Below are positions 5,459 through 26,636 of a stretch of 64,000 nucleotides of DNA, in pieces. Below the pieces are notes generated by a model. It did no database searches. It had not been told where the DNA came from and saw only the letters and a program-made list of their open reading frames with translations. The DNA comes from Magnetococcales bacterium (GTDB taxonomy: Bacteria; Pseudomonadota; Magnetococcia; Magnetococcales; JADGCH01): the NCBI GenBank assembly GCA_015229115.1, contig JADGCH010000003.1:1-64000 (forward strand). The letters run 5' to 3'. Each line of letters begins with the position of its first letter. Within the stretch, counting starts at the first letter, position 1. Both the position numbers and the translations under genes were made by a program.

Positions 5459-6900
5459 ACCTGCGTATGGATTTACGGGTGCTGGCGCTGGTGTCCGGCA
5501 TACTGACCGTCTATCAAACAGTACCCCTGTTGTACGCCGTGGCGGTTGGCGAGTCAGCCGTGGCCATGGAATTGTCGATGCTGTGTTCACTGACCGTTTT
5601 CCTGCTCGGCTGGACTACGACAAGCAGGGCCGACCGGAAGTTATCGGCCAAGGATGGCTTTCTGATTACCAGTGTAGTCTGGTTCATGGCCGCCTTTCTG
5701 GGTGGACTGCCCTATGTCTTTGCTGATCTGCTGGGGTGGATTGATGCCTTCTTCGAGACCGCCTCCGGCCTGACCACCACCGGATCGTCGGTACTGACCG
5801 ATATCGAGGTCTGGCCCAAAAACCTGCTGCTGTGGCGCGCCATGACGCAATGGATTGGAGGCATGGGTATCCTGTTGCTGGCTATTGCTATTCTGCCCTT
5901 TCTCGGCGTCGGTGGCATGCAGCTGATGAAGGCCGAGGTACCCGGACCGAGCAAGGATCGGCTGGTGCCACGCCTAGCCACTACAGCACGCATCTTCTGG
6001 TCAATCTACGTTGGCATCACCCTGGCCGCTGTCATCTGCTTCTACTTTTCCGGCATGTCCCTTTACGATGCCTTCTGTCATGCCTTTACCGCTCTGGCCA
6101 CCGGTGGCTATTCGACCAGGAATGCCAGCTTCGGTGCCTTTTCCCCTGCAGCCCAGTGGTGGTGTACCCTGTTTATGGCCATGGGTGGGGCCAATTTTGT
6201 CATTCACTATCGCGTTTTCATGAGAGGGGATACCGCTGCCCTCTCCGATGTTGAGTTGCGCGGTTACCTGATGTTGATCTGTGGCTTCAGTTTGGTCATC
6301 GCTGCCACACTCTATGCCCAGCAGTTCCCGGGCATGGATACCGTAGAATCCGCCCTGCGTCATGCCTTCTTCCAGGTGGTCTCCATCATGACTACCACCG
6401 GTTTTGCTAGTATTGACTGGGAACAATGGCCAGCCCTGATGCAATTCCTGCTCGTGGCCCTTATGATTCCGGGTGGAATGGCGGGTTCGACCGGTGGTGG
6501 CATCAAGGTGGTACGGCTGCAGATTCTGCTCAGCCTGATACCAGTAACGGCACGGCGCATGATGAAGCCTTCCCAGGTGGTCGTGACAAAAGTTGGCGGC
6601 CATCCGTTGCACAGCGAAATCATCGAAGCCAGCGTCGCCATGACCATCCTCTATCTGCTGATGATGGTTGCTGTTGGCATAGCGCTCAATGTGCTGGGCA
6701 TGGACCTGCCCAGCGCCATGAGTGCTTCACTCACCGCTATTGCCAACGTTGGCCCGGGAGTGGGCGAAGTGGGCGCCATGGATAATTTCTCTGCCGTCCA
6801 TCCACTGGGAAAGGTGCTGCTGGCCTCTCTCATGATTGTCGGTAGGCTGGAGCTGTTCACGGTGATGATCTTTTTCTCATCCTGGTTCTGGAAACGATAG
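5455..6900 (+). CDS. trkH: Trk potassium channel subunit TrkH
   Basis: Membrane-embedded K+ translocating subunit of 481 residues. The four pore-loop/selectivity-filter repeats of the family are visible: ASGLTTTGSSVL, ALATGGYSTRN, IMTTTGFASIDW and ANVGPGVGEVG, each with the filter glycine, between membrane helices. The C-terminus ends in the family's typical RLELFTVMIFFSSWFWKR. It pairs with TrkA upstream through an ATGA overlap; dciA follows 9 bp downstream and may be co-transcribed. Confidence 0.97.
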   Translation: MNLRMDLRVLALVSGILTVYQTVPLLYAVAVGESAVAMELSMLCSLTVFLLGWTTTSRADRKLSAKDGFLITSVVWFMAAFLGGLPYVFADLLGWIDAFFETASGLTTTGSSVLTDIEVWPKNLLLWRAMTQWIGGMGILLLAIAILPFLGVGGMQLMKAEVPGPSKDRLVPRLATTARIFWSIYVGITLAAVICFYFSGMSLYDAFCHAFTALATGGYSTRNASFGAFSPAAQWWCTLFMAMGGANFVIHYRVFMRGDTAALSDVELRGYLMLICGFSLVIAATLYAQQFPGMDTVESALRHAFFQVVSIMTTTGFASIDWEQWPALMQFLLVALMIPGGMAGSTGGGIKVVRLQILLSLIPVTARRMMKPSQVVVTKVGGHPLHSEIIEASVAMTILYLLMMVAVGIALNVLGMDLPSAMSASLTAIANVGPGVGEVGAMDNFSAVHPLGKVLLASLMIVGRLELFTVMIFFSSWFWKR

Positions 6901-6909
6901 ACCAGCAAG

Positions 6910-7428
6910 ATGCCGAACCAGACCGATCCGATCCAGCCTGTTGGCGAGATCATTCGTTCGGTAGCCAACCGGCTGCTGGAGCATCCCAACAGCCGGGCCC
7001 AGGGACTCTGGAAGTACTGGCACCACATTTTCGGCGATCCCATCGCCCGGCACACCGAGCCAGTACGCCTGACCAACGGCGTATTGGTCATCCGGGTGGA
7101 TCTCTCCACCTGGATGACGCAGCTGACCTTTCTCAAACCGGAAATACTCGACAAGATACAGCAACTGCTGCCGCCGGGCAGTGTACGCGAGATCCGTCTG
7201 CAACAGGGCTCGCTGCGTAGTCGTGGCCAACAGGCCAGCCGCTATCAGTATCAACCCGGTCCGGCATTACCCCCAGCATCAGAACAGGAACAGCTCAAGG
7301 CTGAACAGGCCTGTGCAACGGTGCAGGATGAGACATTGCGCCGTACTCTCTACCGCTTGCTGGTCACCCATCAGGTCTATCAGCGTAGCTTCAGCGACAC
7401 ACAAGTCAGTCCACAAGTCAGTCATTAA
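6910..7428 (+). CDS. DUF721 / DciA-type protein
   Basis: A 172-residue cytoplasmic protein. Residues 12-100 match the DUF721 pattern (LWKYWHHIFGDPIARHTEP, then GVLVIRVDLSTWMTQLTFLKPEIL, then VREIRLQQGSL). DUF721 includes DciA, the ancestral loader of the replicative helicase DnaB, so a helicase-operator role is likely. The C-terminal 70 residues are Gln-rich and variable. It follows trkH closely and overlaps the convergent sulP gene by 11 bp. The family is clear; the DciA role is inferred. Confidence 0.8.
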   Translation: MPNQTDPIQPVGEIIRSVANRLLEHPNSRAQGLWKYWHHIFGDPIARHTEPVRLTNGVLVIRVDLSTWMTQLTFLKPEILDKIQQLLPPGSVREIRLQQGSLRSRGQQASRYQYQPGPALPPASEQEQLKAEQACATVQDETLRRTLYRLLVTHQVYQRSFSDTQVSPQVSH

Positions 7429-9463
7429 TAGCCTGACGCAACGATTCCCTGGCTTGGTGATACTCCTTCTGCGCCGAATGGATCACCTGATTGGCCGACA
7501 GCATTCTCTCCATCGCCGCCTCAATGTCTGTTCCAACCATCATTTGCCTGACACGTTCCACGTCATGCAGAGTGCCCTCCAGCAGGTTGAGATCGCCTTC
7601 ACCTTCCAGTAGTACCGCCAACAGATGGCTACAGACGGCCTCATCTTCCTGCAATTCACAGCTACAGGTAGCGGTCATGTTGGAACCTTCACGACGGAAA
7701 TGGACCCGGTAACCCTCAGGGTGGTCATAGTCCTGCACCAGCAGGGTGATCTCCTGTACCGGCTGCAGCATGGCCTCGTAGTCCTCGACGGCCTCCCTGA
7801 CCGATACATAAAACTGGTAGCTGCCGATGGTTTCTGAAATGCCTACTTTTTTCAACTGGGCCATGAACGGCCTTGGCGTATCGGCAATCTTGATCTCGAT
7901 ACCGGCCGCCTGCATCTCACGATACATTTCAGCAAAGCGCTGTGCGGCGGTGATATCCATGTCGGTAATGGCCTGGGCGTCGATAATGATCCACCGGATG
8001 GGAGGATCGGCCTCAGCGACCAAAGCACGCAGGCGGCTGGTGACATGGCGGGCATTGGCAAAAATGAGCGGGGCATAGAGTCGATAAACCAACAGGCCTG
8101 GCACAGGATCAACATCGGCTGGAATATCACGGCCAAAATCGTGAAACTTTTTCCCTGGCCCCAAACGGTGCAGGATGGCGTCACCAGGACGGGATATCTC
8201 CACGATGATCCCGATCAGGGAGATCAGCAGCCCCAGGATGATACCGGGCACCACACCAGCAACCAGAATCGCCAAGGTTACAGCAACCGACATGAGACAC
8301 TCAAAACGATCGACCCGATAGAGATCGCGCAGGGCGGCCAGTTCCAGCATGCCCATCGCTGTGACAATTAGAATGGCGGCTAGGGCTACCTTGGGCAGAA
8401 AAACCAGCAGATTGGTGCCGTAATAGAGAAACAGCAGCAACCCCCCTGCAGCAACCAGCTGGGCCAGCTGACTCTTGCCCCCAGACGCATCAACGATTGA
8501 GGTACGGGACTGGCTGGCCGATACCGGAAAGCCTTGCCACAGCGCCGCACTGACGTTGGCAATACCCAGGGCTGTCAACTCCCGGTTGGGATGGATCTCG
8601 TAACGATTTTTGTCTGCAAAGGCCTGCGCCAACAAAATGCCGTCCGAGAAAGTGAGAAAGGCTATCGCCAGCGCTGCCGGGGCCAAAGCCGGTATATCGG
8701 CCCAATGCAGAACAGGCATGGCAAAATCGGGCACACCAGCCGGTACCCGACCGACCAAAGCCACTCCCATCTTGCCCAGATCAAGCCAGTAGGTCGATAG
8801 TATGGCCACCACCGAAACCGCTAAGGCTCCCGGAATAAATGGCACGGTACGTGACAGAACGATCATGAACAGGATCAGCAGCACACCGAAAATCAGGGTA
8901 GGCGAATGGGTCGTTGGCAGTCCATCGATAATCTGCTCCAGAATGGGAAAGAAGTCCTCCCCATGCGTCTTGATGGCAAACAGTTTACCTGCCTGAGTGG
9001 CGGCAAGCACCAGGGAGGCCCCGTTCAGATAGCCAATCAGCACCGGACGAGAGAGAAAATCGGCAATGGCCCCCACCCGCAAGTGGGCCGCCAGTATGAG
9101 GATGATCCCAGATAGCAGAGCCAAAGTGGCCGCCAGCATGGCCATCCGACCCGGATCACCCGCTGCCAGTGGCAGAATCGCTGCACCAGCCAGCAACCCA
9201 ATGGCCGCATCGGGACCAGCAATCACATGACGTGATGAAGAAAACAGGGCATAGCCCACCGCCGATGCCAGAGCTGCATAAATACCAGCAATGGGTGGCA
9301 TATGAACCAATTCGGCATAGGCCAGCACGGATGGGATCATGATGACACAGGCCGTCAGACCAGCCACCAGATCCCCTTTTAACCACACCAACTGATAATG
9401 TCGCAACTGGAAAACGATGGGCAACAGCCATCCGGTACGATCTTTAACCCGAAACAGAGACAT
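7418..9463 (-). CDS. SulP anion permease with STAS domain and SWIM-type zinc-finger tail
   Basis: Numbering follows the 691-residue open frame. Residues about 20-440 are a SulP/SLC26 transporter (GLTACVIMIPSVLAYAELVHMPPIAGIYAAL, multiple membrane helices); residues about 455-560 are a STAS domain (WIIIDAQAITDMDITAAQRF). Beyond the usual end is a roughly 120-residue extension with CSCELQEDEAVCSH (res 610-623), the CxCx(n)CxH zinc-binding pattern of SWIM domains, then a charged helical tail. The substrate (sulfate, bicarbonate or other anion) cannot be told. The open frame begins at 9493, but the ATG at 9463 has a better ribosome site (AGGGTGAT, 6 nt spacing). The tail is in frame with no stop or slip. 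Confidence 0.9.
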   Translation of the reverse strand: MSLFRVKDRTGWLLPIVFQLRHYQLVWLKGDLVAGLTACVIMIPSVLAYAELVHMPPIAGIYAALASAVGYALFSSSRHVIAGPDAAIGLLAGAAILPLAAGDPGRMAMLAATLALLSGIILILAAHLRVGAIADFLSRPVLIGYLNGASLVLAATQAGKLFAIKTHGEDFFPILEQIIDGLPTTHSPTLIFGVLLILFMIVLSRTVPFIPGALAVSVVAILSTYWLDLGKMGVALVGRVPAGVPDFAMPVLHWADIPALAPAALAIAFLTFSDGILLAQAFADKNRYEIHPNRELTALGIANVSAALWQGFPVSASQSRTSIVDASGGKSQLAQLVAAGGLLLFLYYGTNLLVFLPKVALAAILIVTAMGMLELAALRDLYRVDRFECLMSVAVTLAILVAGVVPGIILGLLISLIGIIVEISRPGDAILHRLGPGKKFHDFGRDIPADVDPVPGLLVYRLYAPLIFANARHVTSRLRALVAEADPPIRWIIIDAQAITDMDITAAQRFAEMYREMQAAGIEIKIADTPRPFMAQLKKVGISETIGSYQFYVSVREAVEDYEAMLQPVQEITLLVQDYDHPEGYRVHFRREGSNMTATCSCELQEDEAVCSHLLAVLLEGEGDLNLLEGTLHDVERVRQMMVGTDIEAAMERMLSANQVIHSAQKEYHQARESLRQAIND

Positions 9464-9565
9464 TGTTCTATCACCCTGGATTCGATTGATCATGATTCAC
9501 CAGGAAACAGTGTAGCAGACCAAACTGAAGCCAAGTTGAAGCAGGATCGTATTTTGATCGCCTTG

Positions 9566-21514: not shown

Positions 21515-23272
21515 GTGATCCGTCGCTATGTCCTGCTACTGGTCGGCATTATCCTGGCGTTGTCGCTCTCTCCGACGATCTATCTCTATCTGAGCCATTC
21601 AAGGCTCAATGCACAGGTTGCGATCATCAATCAGTTTCATCTCACATCCGCCAAAATCTGTGATCGTATCAGTGAGGAGTTACAGAGCATTCGGGCTCAC
21701 CACGCTGAGGAACACCTGTCACAAATCGTCTCCTACCAACCCAGGAAAACAACCCTCTACCACAAGGACCATTTCCGAACCATTCAGGCACAGTTTAACC
21801 AGCTCACTACCCTGTGGCAGCAATACCGGGAAGCCAGTGCATCCTATCCAGAGTTGCTGCATTACTACGAGGATGCTAGACGCTGGCTGTGGCAACTCGA
21901 TCCGATCTGGTTGGCAGAGGATCAATATGAGCTGATTGACCCGTTGTTTGAAGCCTCTGTAGAAGCCCTACAGGCCCTTTCTGCTGACATGATGGCGTTG
22001 GAGCGAGGTCATGTGCGCATGGTTGACAAAATGGGTGAGCAGCTCACCCAGGAACGTCAATGGCATGAACGGGTTCTCTATCTGTTGACCCTGCTGTTGG
22101 CAATCATCGGACTGTTCGCTGGCAAAAAAATCATGCAGCTGATAGTCGCGCAGATCAATCAGCGTATAGTTACAGAGCATAAGTTAAGTAAGAATCTTGT
22201 CGAAATCCAGAAAAGTCAACTGGAACGGGATATGCTGCGCCGTTCCAACAGGGCTATGATCATTGCACTGGCTGATCTAGCGGAAAATCGGGATAATAAC
22301 ACTGGAGAGCACGTCCTGCGGGTAGCACGGCTGACCCATGAAATTGCCCTAGAGCTACGAGCAATGGGCGTTACAGCTGTTGATGACCCCTTTCTGGCAC
22401 AGATTGCCTCGTCCAGCATGCTGCATGATGTTGGAAAAGTGAGTACTCCAGACCACATCCTGCTCAAACCAGGGGCACTCAGCGCTGAGGAACGCATCAT
22501 TATGCAACAGCACGCCCAAGCTGGTGGTCATTTTCTGGAAAAAATAGCCTCTTTACAAGAGATGGGCCATCATCTCAATATGGCCGGCCGCATCGCCCGG
22601 TTCCATCACGAACAATACCAAGGCGGCGGCTACCCAGACGGTTTGGTCGGTGAGGACATTCCTCTTGAGGCCCGCATCGTGACAGTAGCCGATGTCTATG
22701 ATGCCCTCACCTCCTGGCGGCCTTACAAAAAGCCCTGGACTCAGGAACAAGCGAATGACTTCATTCGGGAACGTGCAGGCAAGCTGTTTGATCCGAATGT
22801 GGTCCAAGCCTTCTTTGCAGCACAGGCACGTCGGGAAGAAGTGACCGCCTTGCAATGGCAGGAGGAGATGACCGTCGGTATTGCGGTACTGGACAACGAT
22901 CACAGGAAAATCATTTCGCTGATCAATCAAATGACGCGTTGCCAGCAACAACCCGATACGACCATGATCGAGTTGGTGCTCGACGAGCTTTATAATTACA
23001 CGACACGTCATTTACAGCGTGAGGAAGCCTTCTTGCGTGAAATCGGCTTTCCCAGCGCATCAGACCATACACAAAGCCACAACCAGTTTGCCCAACAGGT
23101 TGCCGCAATGCGTCGACGCTATTTCCATGAACAGCGGATCGAAATAGCGGAAGGATTGACGGCGTTGATGACCCGCTGGCTGATTGAGCACATCCTGCGC
23201 GAAGATCAGCTCTATGCCCGCTGGTACGCCGAAATAGGTCAACCAGCTGTCCAATGCCTTCAGGCAACATGA
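21515..23272 (+). CDS. Membrane HD-GYP phosphodiesterase with C-terminal hemerythrin domain
   Basis: A 585-residue protein starting at GTG (GGAG 10 nt upstream). Two membrane helices (about 5-22 and 188-210) enclose a periplasmic segment. The HD-GYP domain (about 245-425) has HVLRVARLTH, the metal-binding SSMLHDVGKV, and HHEQYQGGGYPDGL, so it should hydrolyse c-di-GMP. The C-terminal 130 residues form a bacteriohemerythrin domain with the iron ligands in DNDHRKI, TTRHLQREEAF, HTQSHNQF and WLIEHILREDQ. Hemerythrin binds O2 at a di-iron site, so oxygen or redox state may control the hydrolase (inference). It is coupled to the GGDEF gene upstream; pabB-pabC starts by ATGA overlap. Confidence 0.95.
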   Translation: MIRRYVLLLVGIILALSLSPTIYLYLSHSRLNAQVAIINQFHLTSAKICDRISEELQSIRAHHAEEHLSQIVSYQPRKTTLYHKDHFRTIQAQFNQLTTLWQQYREASASYPELLHYYEDARRWLWQLDPIWLAEDQYELIDPLFEASVEALQALSADMMALERGHVRMVDKMGEQLTQERQWHERVLYLLTLLLAIIGLFAGKKIMQLIVAQINQRIVTEHKLSKNLVEIQKSQLERDMLRRSNRAMIIALADLAENRDNNTGEHVLRVARLTHEIALELRAMGVTAVDDPFLAQIASSSMLHDVGKVSTPDHILLKPGALSAEERIIMQQHAQAGGHFLEKIASLQEMGHHLNMAGRIARFHHEQYQGGGYPDGLVGEDIPLEARIVTVADVYDALTSWRPYKKPWTQEQANDFIRERAGKLFDPNVVQAFFAAQARREEVTALQWQEEMTVGIAVLDNDHRKIISLINQMTRCQQQPDTTMIELVLDELYNYTTRHLQREEAFLREIGFPSASDHTQSHNQFAQQVAAMRRRYFHEQRIEIAEGLTALMTRWLIEHILREDQLYARWYAEIGQPAVQCLQAT

Positions 23273-25437
23273 GTTGCGCTGCTGCCGTCATCACAACCGA
23301 TCTTCTCAACAGCCCGGTCTGTGTGTTGCTGGATCAGATGCCGTTGGGCAAACCGCTATTGCTGCGTCAGCCTCGTGCCATCTACACCGCCCACCAACCG
23401 GACCAGATGATGCCGTTGTTACAGCGGGTGGAACATGAATCGCTGGCCGGTCGCTGGGTAGCCGGACTGGTTCGCTATGAAGCGGCTGCCGTCTTTGGCC
23501 TGCCGGTCCATGCACCAGCGTCCCATGCCCTGCTACCCCTGGCATGGTTTGCAGTATTCGATCAGGCTGAACCCTGCTGTTTCGGTCCATGGCCCATCTC
23601 CCAGCCGCTCTCGCTGCACCCCATGGTCAGCGCTGCCGATCATGCTGCTGCCGTAGCCCGTATTCACGATTACATTACTACTGGTGATAGCTATCAGGTT
23701 AATCTGACGCTACCCATGACCTTGCCAGCATCAACCGATATGGCCGCCCTGTTCCTGAGATTGCAGATGCTGCACCGTTTCCCCTATGGCCTATGGATCA
23801 ACGGTGGTGATTGGCAAGTCGCCTCATTTTCGCCCGAGCTACTGTTTCTGCGTCAGCAGGATCGCATCACCACAGCGCCGATCAAGGGCACTCGCAGTCG
23901 CCATCCCGACTGGCGTATCGACTATCACCAAGCTATGGCCCTGCTACAATCGGACAAAGACCGGGCCGAACATGTCATGATCGTTGACATGGCCCGTAAC
24001 GATCTCGGTCGTATCTGTCAGACCGGCAGCATCACCGTGTCGCATCTGATGGAATGGCGCCAGCTGCCAACCATCCACCATCTGGAAACAGCCGTGACCG
24101 GTCAGCTGTGTTCCCATACCGGACTGGCACAGATTTTTGCCGCCCTGTTTCCGGCTGCCTCGATTACCGGTGCCCCCAAGCATCGCACCATGGCCATCAT
24201 TCGCGAGCTGGAGCCATGGCCACGCGGCATCTATACCGGCAGCGTCGGTGTGCTGTTACCAGGCGGTGATAGCTGTTTCAACGTCGCCATCCGCACGGTG
24301 ACAGCCACTCGCGATAGCGCTCCGACGGTGGGATTGGGTGGTGGCATCGTCATCGACTCACAGGCCGATGACGAGTGGCAGGAATTGCTGCACAAGGCTG
24401 ATTTCTTGCGACCCATCACAACAATTACTGCAACACCACCGGCTCTTCTGGAAACCATGCGGGTGGAACAGACAGGCCTGATCCCGCGTCTGTCGCAACA
24501 TCTGGCACGACTAACGGCTTCGGCACAGACGCTGGGATTCTGCTGCGATCCCGTCACCATCGAACAACAAGCCCGTGATCAAGCGCATCAGTGGGCCCTG
24601 GCCGGACTGACACCCTGCATCCTGCGCCTATCCCTTTCTCACGACGGTGTGGTGACATGGACCAGACGACCACAGCAAGCTGATCCGACAACCGGCCTGA
24701 AGATACGCACGGCGGCCGTACCCGTCGATCGTCTCGACCGCTGGCTGCGACACAAGACCACCCGACGCCAGTCTCTGGACCAGCTGCTGATCGACGCCCG
24801 CCAGGATGGCTATGATGACGTGCTGCTGTGCAACAACCTCGGCTGGATCACCGAAGGAACCATCCGCGCCATTGCTGTACGTTTGGCTAATCGCTGGCTG
24901 GTGCCCCCGAGCGACGCCGGCCTGTTAGCCAGTCTCTGGCGTCAGGAGTGGATGACAGCCCGTCAGGCTACCGAACACCCTCTGACCGTAACCGACCTGA
25001 AGCAGTGCCAGGAAATCTGGATGGGCAACAGTGTCCGCGGCGGCTGTCCGGTGATACAGGTTGACGATCCTGATGGGCAGCCCTTATGGCTTGCCAATAG
25101 GACGCCATCAAAGGTCGCTAACCAACAGCTCTCGTGTGAGCTGGCAGAAATGGAGGGAGTCAACAAGATGCCGTCTTATGTAACCAGTTTTGAGCAGATT
25201 GCCATGGAAAAAGGCATGGAAAAAGGCATGGAAAAAGGCATGGAAAAAGGCATGGAAAAAGGCGAGCAATCGGTGCTGCTGCGCCAACTGCGCCGCCGTT
25301 TTACCACTCTGCCCTCATGGGTTGAACCCAGGGTGCTTAATGCCAGTCTGGATCTGCTTGGGGAATGGACCGACCGCATCCTCGACGCCCATTCGTTGCA
25401 GGATATCTTCGGTGATGAGGCCCAAGCAGCGCATTGA
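23269..25437 (+). CDS. pabB: Aminodeoxychorismate synthase I / lyase fusion with an Rpn/DUF4351-type tail
   Basis: Folate pathway enzyme making p-aminobenzoate from chorismate. The N-terminal PabB part (res 1-395) shows GDSYQVNLTLPM, PIKGTRSRHPDW, DLGRICQTGSI, FPAASITGAPKHR and GLGGGIVIDSQ; the PabC-like PLP lyase part (about 400-620) shows LRLSLSHDG and NLGWITEGTIRAIAV. The last 100 residues (MPSYVTSFEQIAMEKG, five MEKG repeats, then LLRQLRRRFTTLPSWVE and LLGEWTDRILDAHSLQDIF) do not belong to PabC. They match the C-terminal tail of Rpn/DUF4351-type nuclease-like proteins. The ATG at 23269 overlaps the HD-GYP stop (ATGA), so I prefer it to the ORF-track start. The enzyme part should still work. 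Confidence 0.9.
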   Translation: MSCAAAVITTDLLNSPVCVLLDQMPLGKPLLLRQPRAIYTAHQPDQMMPLLQRVEHESLAGRWVAGLVRYEAAAVFGLPVHAPASHALLPLAWFAVFDQAEPCCFGPWPISQPLSLHPMVSAADHAAAVARIHDYITTGDSYQVNLTLPMTLPASTDMAALFLRLQMLHRFPYGLWINGGDWQVASFSPELLFLRQQDRITTAPIKGTRSRHPDWRIDYHQAMALLQSDKDRAEHVMIVDMARNDLGRICQTGSITVSHLMEWRQLPTIHHLETAVTGQLCSHTGLAQIFAALFPAASITGAPKHRTMAIIRELEPWPRGIYTGSVGVLLPGGDSCFNVAIRTVTATRDSAPTVGLGGGIVIDSQADDEWQELLHKADFLRPITTITATPPALLETMRVEQTGLIPRLSQHLARLTASAQTLGFCCDPVTIEQQARDQAHQWALAGLTPCILRLSLSHDGVVTWTRRPQQADPTTGLKIRTAAVPVDRLDRWLRHKTTRRQSLDQLLIDARQDGYDDVLLCNNLGWITEGTIRAIAVRLANRWLVPPSDAGLLASLWRQEWMTARQATEHPLTVTDLKQCQEIWMGNSVRGGCPVIQVDDPDGQPLWLANRTPSKVANQQLSCELAEMEGVNKMPSYVTSFEQIAMEKGMEKGMEKGMEKGMEKGEQSVLLRQLRRRFTTLPSWVEPRVLNASLDLLGEWTDRILDAHSLQDIFGDEAQAAH
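25204..25263 (+). repeat. Five 12-bp tandem repeats (MEKG)5
   Basis: ATGGAAAAAGGC is repeated five times without a mismatch, coding MEKG five times in a row. MEKG/IEKG runs of this kind are typical of the linker before the C-terminal domain of Rpn/DUF4351 proteins. The copies are identical, so copy number may vary by slippage, always in whole codons. Confidence 0.95.
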
Positions 25438-25664: not shown

Positions 25665-26636
25665 ATGGCCACCGCCGTCGCCGTTATCGATACCGCCCTC
25701 ACCGACTATCAATCCCTGGTCGCCAGCCTGCCGCCCGAGCTGGAGATCATCCTGCTCGACCCGCATCAGGATGGCCTCAGCCAGCTGGCCTCCGCCCTCA
25801 CCGGTCGTAGCGGTATCGATGCCATCCACCTCTTCAGCCATGGTGCGCCCGGATCGTTGCAACTGGGCTCCACCACCCTGACTACAGCCAATCTGGCCCG
25901 CTACGCCACCGCGCTCTCCACCATCGGCTCATCCCTGACACCTGATGGCGATCTGCTGCTCTATGGCTGCAACGTCGCTGCCGGTGATACCGGCCTTGCC
26001 TTCATCAACGCTCTAGCCCAATCCACCAGTGCCGATGTGGCCGCCTCAGATGACCTGACCGGCCAGGGCGGAGATTGGTTGCTGGAGCAGCACAGAGGCA
26101 CGGTCACCGCTGCTACCTTTACCCCCAGGTATAGCGGTGCTTTGGCGACCGCGTCGTTTGCTGATAAAGTCAACTATGCTGTTGATGTTGGACCTATTTA
26201 CGCTGCCATTGCTGACGTCAATCATGACAGTTGGCCCGATATTTTGGTGGTTAACTATAACTCCAATGTTGTTTCGGTAATGCGCAACAACGGTAATGGT
26301 ACTTTTGCTGCCAAAGTTGACTACGCTATTGGTGGTCCTAATCCCCATCATATTGTCGCAGCCGATATTAATGATGATGGGTGGTCCGATATTTTGACAA
26401 CCAACCAGGGTGGTAGCACTATCCAGATACTTTATAATAATGGCGATGGCACTTTTGCTTCCAATGTTAGTTATACCGTTGAGCGTTGTTCGTCGTTTCG
26501 GCCAACCTTTAACCCGGGGCGAGTGCCCCGGGCTGATCCTGAATCGCCCCGAAGGGGCAGCCTTAACCACAGCTTGGGGCATCGCCCCAAGAAAGAAGAA
26601 AATCGATTAAAGCAAGGGTTGCCGTTTCTAAGTTGA
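25665..26636 (+). pseudogene. Truncated DUF4347 / FG-GAP repeat surface protein
   Basis: Residues 1-160 match DUF4347 (IHLFSHGAPGSLQLG, LLLYGCNVAAGDTG, ASDDLTGQGGDWLLE), the N-terminal domain of very large secreted adhesin-like proteins. Residues 165-275 start FG-GAP/VCBS beta-propeller repeats (IADVNHDSWPDILVVNY, VAADINDDGWSDILTTN, NNGDGTF). At about residue 277 the frame runs into the GC-rich repeat (26500), and the last ~47 residues are repeat-encoded and Arg/Pro-rich. Full proteins of this kind run to thousands of residues, so only the 5' end remains. GGAGAG precedes the ATG. It may still be expressed, but the secretion signal region is gone. Confidence 0.75.
26500..26591 (+). repeat. GC-rich triple-hairpin repeat, right copy (intact)
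   Basis: Three consecutive perfect stem-loops: CCCGGGGC-GAGT-GCCCCGGG, GCCCC-GAA-GGGGC and CTTGGGGC-ATC-GCCCCAAG, preceded by GGCCAACCTTT. It disrupts the FG-GAP gene and ends about 110 bp before argH. It is in the same orientation as the copy at 25457-25640, so the two flank the DUF4347 remnant as direct repeats. It could also act as a terminator or mRNA-stabilising structure. Confidence 0.8.

Follow-up and report, generated by a model that had tools for sequence, protein, structure and literature searches.

In a 64,000-nucleotide stretch of Magnetococcales DNA (the window), we identified a gene whose product extends a SulP/SLC26-type transporter by a complete small SWIM zinc-finger protein, fused behind the STAS domain. 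We propose, with moderate confidence, that the added module serves as a docking or regulatory domain beside STAS and derives from a partner protein of transporters. Pfam recovered all three domains named in the original prediction: Sulfate_transp (residues 38–404, 6.7e-86, 288.9 bits), STAS (residues 464–568, 5.2e-13, 49.1 bits against a cut-off of 22.6) and, at the C-terminus, SWIM (PF04434, residues 596–629). A profile search of the tail, suggested at the time as a check, thus gave a match of 21.0 bits in the whole protein, above the cut-off of 19.6, and the score rose to 26.1 bits with a 60-aa piece alone as query. The protein and its motif are as had been described; the gene is encoded on the minus strand, where its open reading frame (ORF) spans 7418–9493, position 9463 being the second Met (Table 1). 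A convergent 172-aa ORF (6910–7428) overlaps the gene by 11 bases at its end. On the same side follow what we take to be TrkH-like, TrkA-like and Kup-like K+ transport genes, and on the other side presumably a GGDEF/EAL protein and a response regulator.

Table 1 Features of the SulP-STAS-SWIM gene in the window. Residue numbers refer to the 681-aa form; Pfam residue coordinates in the text refer to the 691-aa form.
Feature	Position	Strand	Basis or remark
SulP-STAS-SWIM gene	7418..9493	-	First ATG gives 691 aa, ATG at 9463 gives 681 aa
SulP membrane core (PF00916)	8282..9382	-	Pfam; PDB relatives prestin, SLC26A6, AtSULTR4;1, BicA TM domain
STAS domain (PF01740)	7790..8104	-	Pfam
Fused tail domain, 114 aa	7421..7762	-	Homologous over full length to stand-alone SWIM proteins
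SWIM zinc-finger match (PF04434)	7607..7708	-	Pfam
Putative Zn-ligand stretch, CSCELQEDEAVCSH	7625..7666	-	Ligands invariant in alignments A1, A2, A4
Putative Zn-ligand codons	Cys600 7664-7666; Cys602 7658-7660; Cys611 7631-7633; His613 7625-7627	-	681-aa numbering
Long C-terminal helix, residues 646-680	7424..7528	-	Conserved TD(V/I)E...A...D

With its PF00916 core and STAS domain, the protein resembles known SulP/SLC26 transporters (TIGR00815; DauA, BicA, prestin, AtSULTR4;1) and differs from them in the extra 114-aa SWIM domain after STAS. It scored 374.4 bits over the full TIGR00815 profile, just under the cut-off of 380.45, and stayed far below the equivalog cut-offs for DauA and BicA. 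A Foldseek search with the whole protein placed it among SLC26 structures (prestin, AtSULTR4;1, SLC26A6, BicA), and its sequence matched these proteins too. AlphaFold2 models of the whole protein (pLDDT 82, 30 sequences) and of the tail alone (mean pLDDT 86.8, 19 sequences) agree on the tail fold: a beta-hairpin is followed by a third strand that ends at CxC; CxH opens a helix, after which come a strand and two helices, the last of ~35 residues. This predicted order of elements is the one expected of SWIM. The tail model itself returned no Foldseek match under E 0.6, and hence no structural template, and a PDB sequence search with the tail gave nothing below E 2. The tail shares with the SWIM family the CxC...CxH ligands, a profile score above the cut-off, the strand before CxC and the helix at CxH. 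Two things set it apart, namely that SWIM domains usually sit on ATPases, transposases or ligases and this one on a membrane transporter, and that family-specific parts lie N- and C-terminal of its finger.

In the whole protein the single SWIM match is only slightly over its cut-off, and the genome is a fragmented draft; both observations would suit a chance motif, a frameshift or an assembly artefact. This protein is the sole PF04434 match at E ≤ 0.001 in its genome. When the tail was shuffled 200,000 times, the pattern CxCx(3–25)CxH appeared in 76 cases, so that the domain is supported mainly by its conservation and less by the single match. Across 61 genomes searched, a near-full-length copy was present in 17 genomes of the order, including that of the window. 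The 16 other orthologues are 65–75% identical to the window protein, and one genome (G032) holds an extra, split copy at 59–72% identity; the remaining SulP proteins in the searched genomes are ~30% identical, and their alignment stops short of the tail. PF04434 was matched by 11 of the 17 orthologous tails at E ≤ 0.1. The three Cys and the His were retained in 16 of 16 aligned full-length orthologues, in all 18 full-tail copies from Magnetococcales and three from Gammaproteobacteria, and without exception in the other tails and stand-alone domains that were extracted (43 in total). In the C-terminal helix, the alignment columns of an Asp, an Ala and the terminal Asp are invariant. Two outcomes had been named beforehand as speaking against the fusion, a tail without a SWIM match and Cys/His residues that vary among orthologues; both were tested and neither was observed. 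Because the same architecture recurs in independent assemblies, the fusion is not an assembly artefact, and its recurrence in many assemblies of two classes, with an intact frame and invariant ligands, contradicts chance and frameshift as well; we regard this whole group of explanations as practically negligible. One orthologue (L040:3524–5533, the same gene as L011) carries an in-frame TAA in the SulP core and keeps the tail; it may be a pseudogene or reflect a sequencing error.

A scan of 84,980 species genomes yielded 80 relatives. The closest tail-less proteins are 60–68% identical and mostly betaproteobacterial (Gallionella, Accumulibacter, Rhodoferax and others), and those from Verrucomicrobiota and Planctomycetota, at 40–49% identity, lack the tail too. 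All of these end ~5–35 residues past STAS, and their gene neighbourhoods showed nothing consistent from which a substrate could be inferred. Other SulP-SWIM fusions, which the original prediction had recommended looking for, were found in Magnetococcales and at three loci of Gammaproteobacteria: L044, L083 and L084, the last of which bears the label Candidatus Thiosymbion. In a maximum-likelihood tree of the SulP core, all 17 SWIM-bearing rows fall into one clade (100/100) with one label change, and the gammaproteobacterial rows lie inside it at an unresolved fork. Since the SWIM-bearing SulPs form a single clade, one fusion suffices. The simplest account is that this fusion was passed on by a single transfer from one class to another, any direction given to the transfer being inferential. 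The cytosolic end of a SulP has thus gained a complete small zinc-finger protein once, in a lineage now represented in Magnetococcales and a few Gammaproteobacteria.

The tail corresponds to a whole small protein, whose stand-alone homologues are mostly given as ~110–125 aa long. Its profile (A2) matches stand-alone ORFs of ~110–140 aa from Magnetococcales and a few other Pseudomonadota over positions 3–114 of its 114, including the C-terminal helix, with E-values down to 3e-24. The start of the stand-alone proteins (MPELxFQV...) aligns at the fusion junction after STAS. Two such copies are encoded in the genome of the window itself (G000:C173:85563–85889, L146, and G000:C29:637–948, L147), and in a tree the fused tails group in a single clade (100/99), separate from their stand-alone homologues. 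The existence of these separate homologues indicates that the fold needs no SulP, and the nearest tail-less relatives manage without it. Both points argue against a structural add-on that would only help the SulPs of this clade to dimerise, insert into the membrane or remain stable. Such a role would fit the 35-residue C-terminal helix, predicted with good confidence, and the weaker conservation of the tail (41–59% identity to the window protein in the finger part versus 72–82% in the membrane core), but we consider it unlikely.

Fused and stand-alone forms differ in charge. The net charge of the fused tails ranges from −3 to −15 (mean −10.8) and is negative in 21 of 21, whereas the stand-alone proteins are near neutral (mean ~+1.0). 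This bears on the idea of a membrane-tethered nucleic-acid-binding domain: SWIM domains have predicted roles in DNA and protein interactions, according to PMC8161499 (citing Makarova et al. 2002), and the other SWIM proteins of related genomes include a SNF2-type ATPase. Because the fused tails are strongly acidic, we reject DNA binding as very unlikely.

Beyond the small proteins, matches to SWIM proteins of ~600 aa in Magnetococcales and of ~1100 aa in a different family cover the finger only; the four that we read are ordinary and cytosolic-looking, the ATPase among them. A wider search with a mixed profile gave no other transporter fusion. A search of plasmids recovered two partial matches and a 359-aa protein of a Burkholderia stagnalis plasmid (L171:6001–7080), which carries the module at its N-terminus ahead of a part that was not recognised, indicating that the SWIM module is mobile. 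An IS256 transposase lies near this plasmid gene. Phage records and viral contigs contained no relative, so there is no sign of a phage origin; the best match of the tail in PHROGs had an E-value of 0.007, and no confident match was found there, the families concerned being uninformative.

To examine the genomic context of the stand-alone genes, we clustered their neighbours, named the clusters with Pfam and mapped all CNNM genes in 25 genomes. Most often the neighbour encoded a CNNM transporter, which carries CBS and CorC_HlyC domains. In 11 of 27 cases a CNNM domain lies 51–146 bp downstream on the same strand; random placement would predict 0.06 instead of 11, although the copies are related by descent and the comparison overstates their independence. 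The two copies in the genome of the window are only distantly related, yet both lie upstream of CNNM. SulP-SWIM genes, too, occur near CNNM genes, at 5 of 17 loci compared with 0 of 28 tail-less SulP loci (Fisher p 0.005, uncorrected for kinship and confounded with phylogeny). The distance is below 1 kb in three Magnetococcales places and in the gammaproteobacterial locus L083. At L108, a stand-alone SWIM gene (5908–6273), a CNNM gene (6389–7792) and a SulP gene (7892–) follow one another on one strand with gaps of 115 and 99 bases; this SulP gene is cut by the contig end, so that its tail is not readable there. CNNM is adjacent neither in the window nor at most SulP-SWIM loci. The CNNM/CorC/CorB Mg2+ transporters (PMC8242095) are thus genomic neighbours of the stand-alone module that share no sequence relation with SulP-SWIM, a link and not homologues. 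These small SWIM proteins upstream of CNNM/CorC in Magnetococcales are undescribed: NCBIfam holds no family for stand-alone small SWIM proteins, and the literature searched contained nothing relevant on CorC with SWIM.

Different neighbours (a PHP-domain gene, aldolases and ligA) accompany the stand-alone copies of the Magnetococcales genus g17, family f18 and genome G174. From this it follows that the CNNM link is lineage-specific and that the SWIM module is not tied to transporters everywhere. In three f18 genomes the small SWIM gene lies beside ligA (L155:5811–9015, L154:6048–7614, L153:5902–8593), and in two of the three a 243–251-aa protein without a Pfam match is encoded between them.

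These unfused copies also inform the original suggestion of a cytosolic sensor, in which the Cys residues would gain or lose zinc, or change their thiol-redox state, and pass the change to STAS, thereby gating the transporter. Three invariant Cys and one His in a cytosolic tail directly after STAS would suit such a sensor, and the linkage to CNNM genes is indicative of divalent-cation physiology. However, CxC...CxH is the ordinary structural SWIM site, and because unfused copies keep the same ligands beside quite different genes, a structural zinc fits better than a SulP-specific switch. Among the neighbours inspected, most of which lack a profile annotation, we recognised no gene for zinc or redox functions. 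We consider a sensor doubtful.

Taken together, a tail that is a whole protein, the CNNM linkage and the acidic fused form lead us to favour a protein-interaction or regulatory module, with a sensor as a possibility. The small SWIM protein would most likely work in the cytosol as a partner of membrane transporters, with one structural zinc ion on CxC...CxH stabilising its fold. Fusion would fix this module permanently next to STAS, where it may serve for docking or regulation, either by controlling the transporter or by coupling it to a further protein. A more specific version, which we put forward as speculative and rather improbable, would make the small SWIM protein a dedicated regulatory subunit common to two unrelated transporter families, acting in trans on CNNM/CorC and in cis on SulP. 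The transport of divalent cations would then be coupled to that of anions by way of one shared zinc-finger module; CNNM/CorC and SulP might then possibly be in direct contact.

The cytosolic STAS domain is a known regulatory handle of SLC26/SulP transporters, human disease proteins included, and to our knowledge few partners act on STAS domains. A zinc-finger partner fused at the STAS end would be a natural construct for studying STAS-based control. SulP-SWIM, here in uncultured magnetotactic-type bacteria, suggests that bacterial transporters can be regulated or wired in a manner not described so far, and the separate SWIM protein beside CNNM genes offers a lead on the regulation of bacterial CNNM/CorC. 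Cytosolic partners fused or adjacent to SulP, such as carbonic anhydrase, are known, as stated in PMC2621215 and PMC6458275 (both citing Felce and Saier 2004). That pairing is similar in that a cytosolic partner occurs both as a gene neighbour and as a fusion in the same transporter family; it differs in that the partner is an enzyme making the substrate, as opposed to a zinc finger without known catalysis. The original prediction knew of no described SulP-SWIM protein, and the freely accessible literature that we searched likewise contained no description of one.

Two further ORFs on the plus strand of the window drew attention on reading. The first (23254–25437, 727 aa) resembles an aminodeoxychorismate synthase/lyase fusion, continues into repeated MEKG units and closes with a tail similar to transposase-like (Rpn/DUF4351-type) proteins; it may be a fusion or a read-through. 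The second (25665–26636) has the beginning of a DUF4347/VCBS-repeat type of surface protein and an unrelated, Arg/Pro-rich end, and looks truncated or interrupted.
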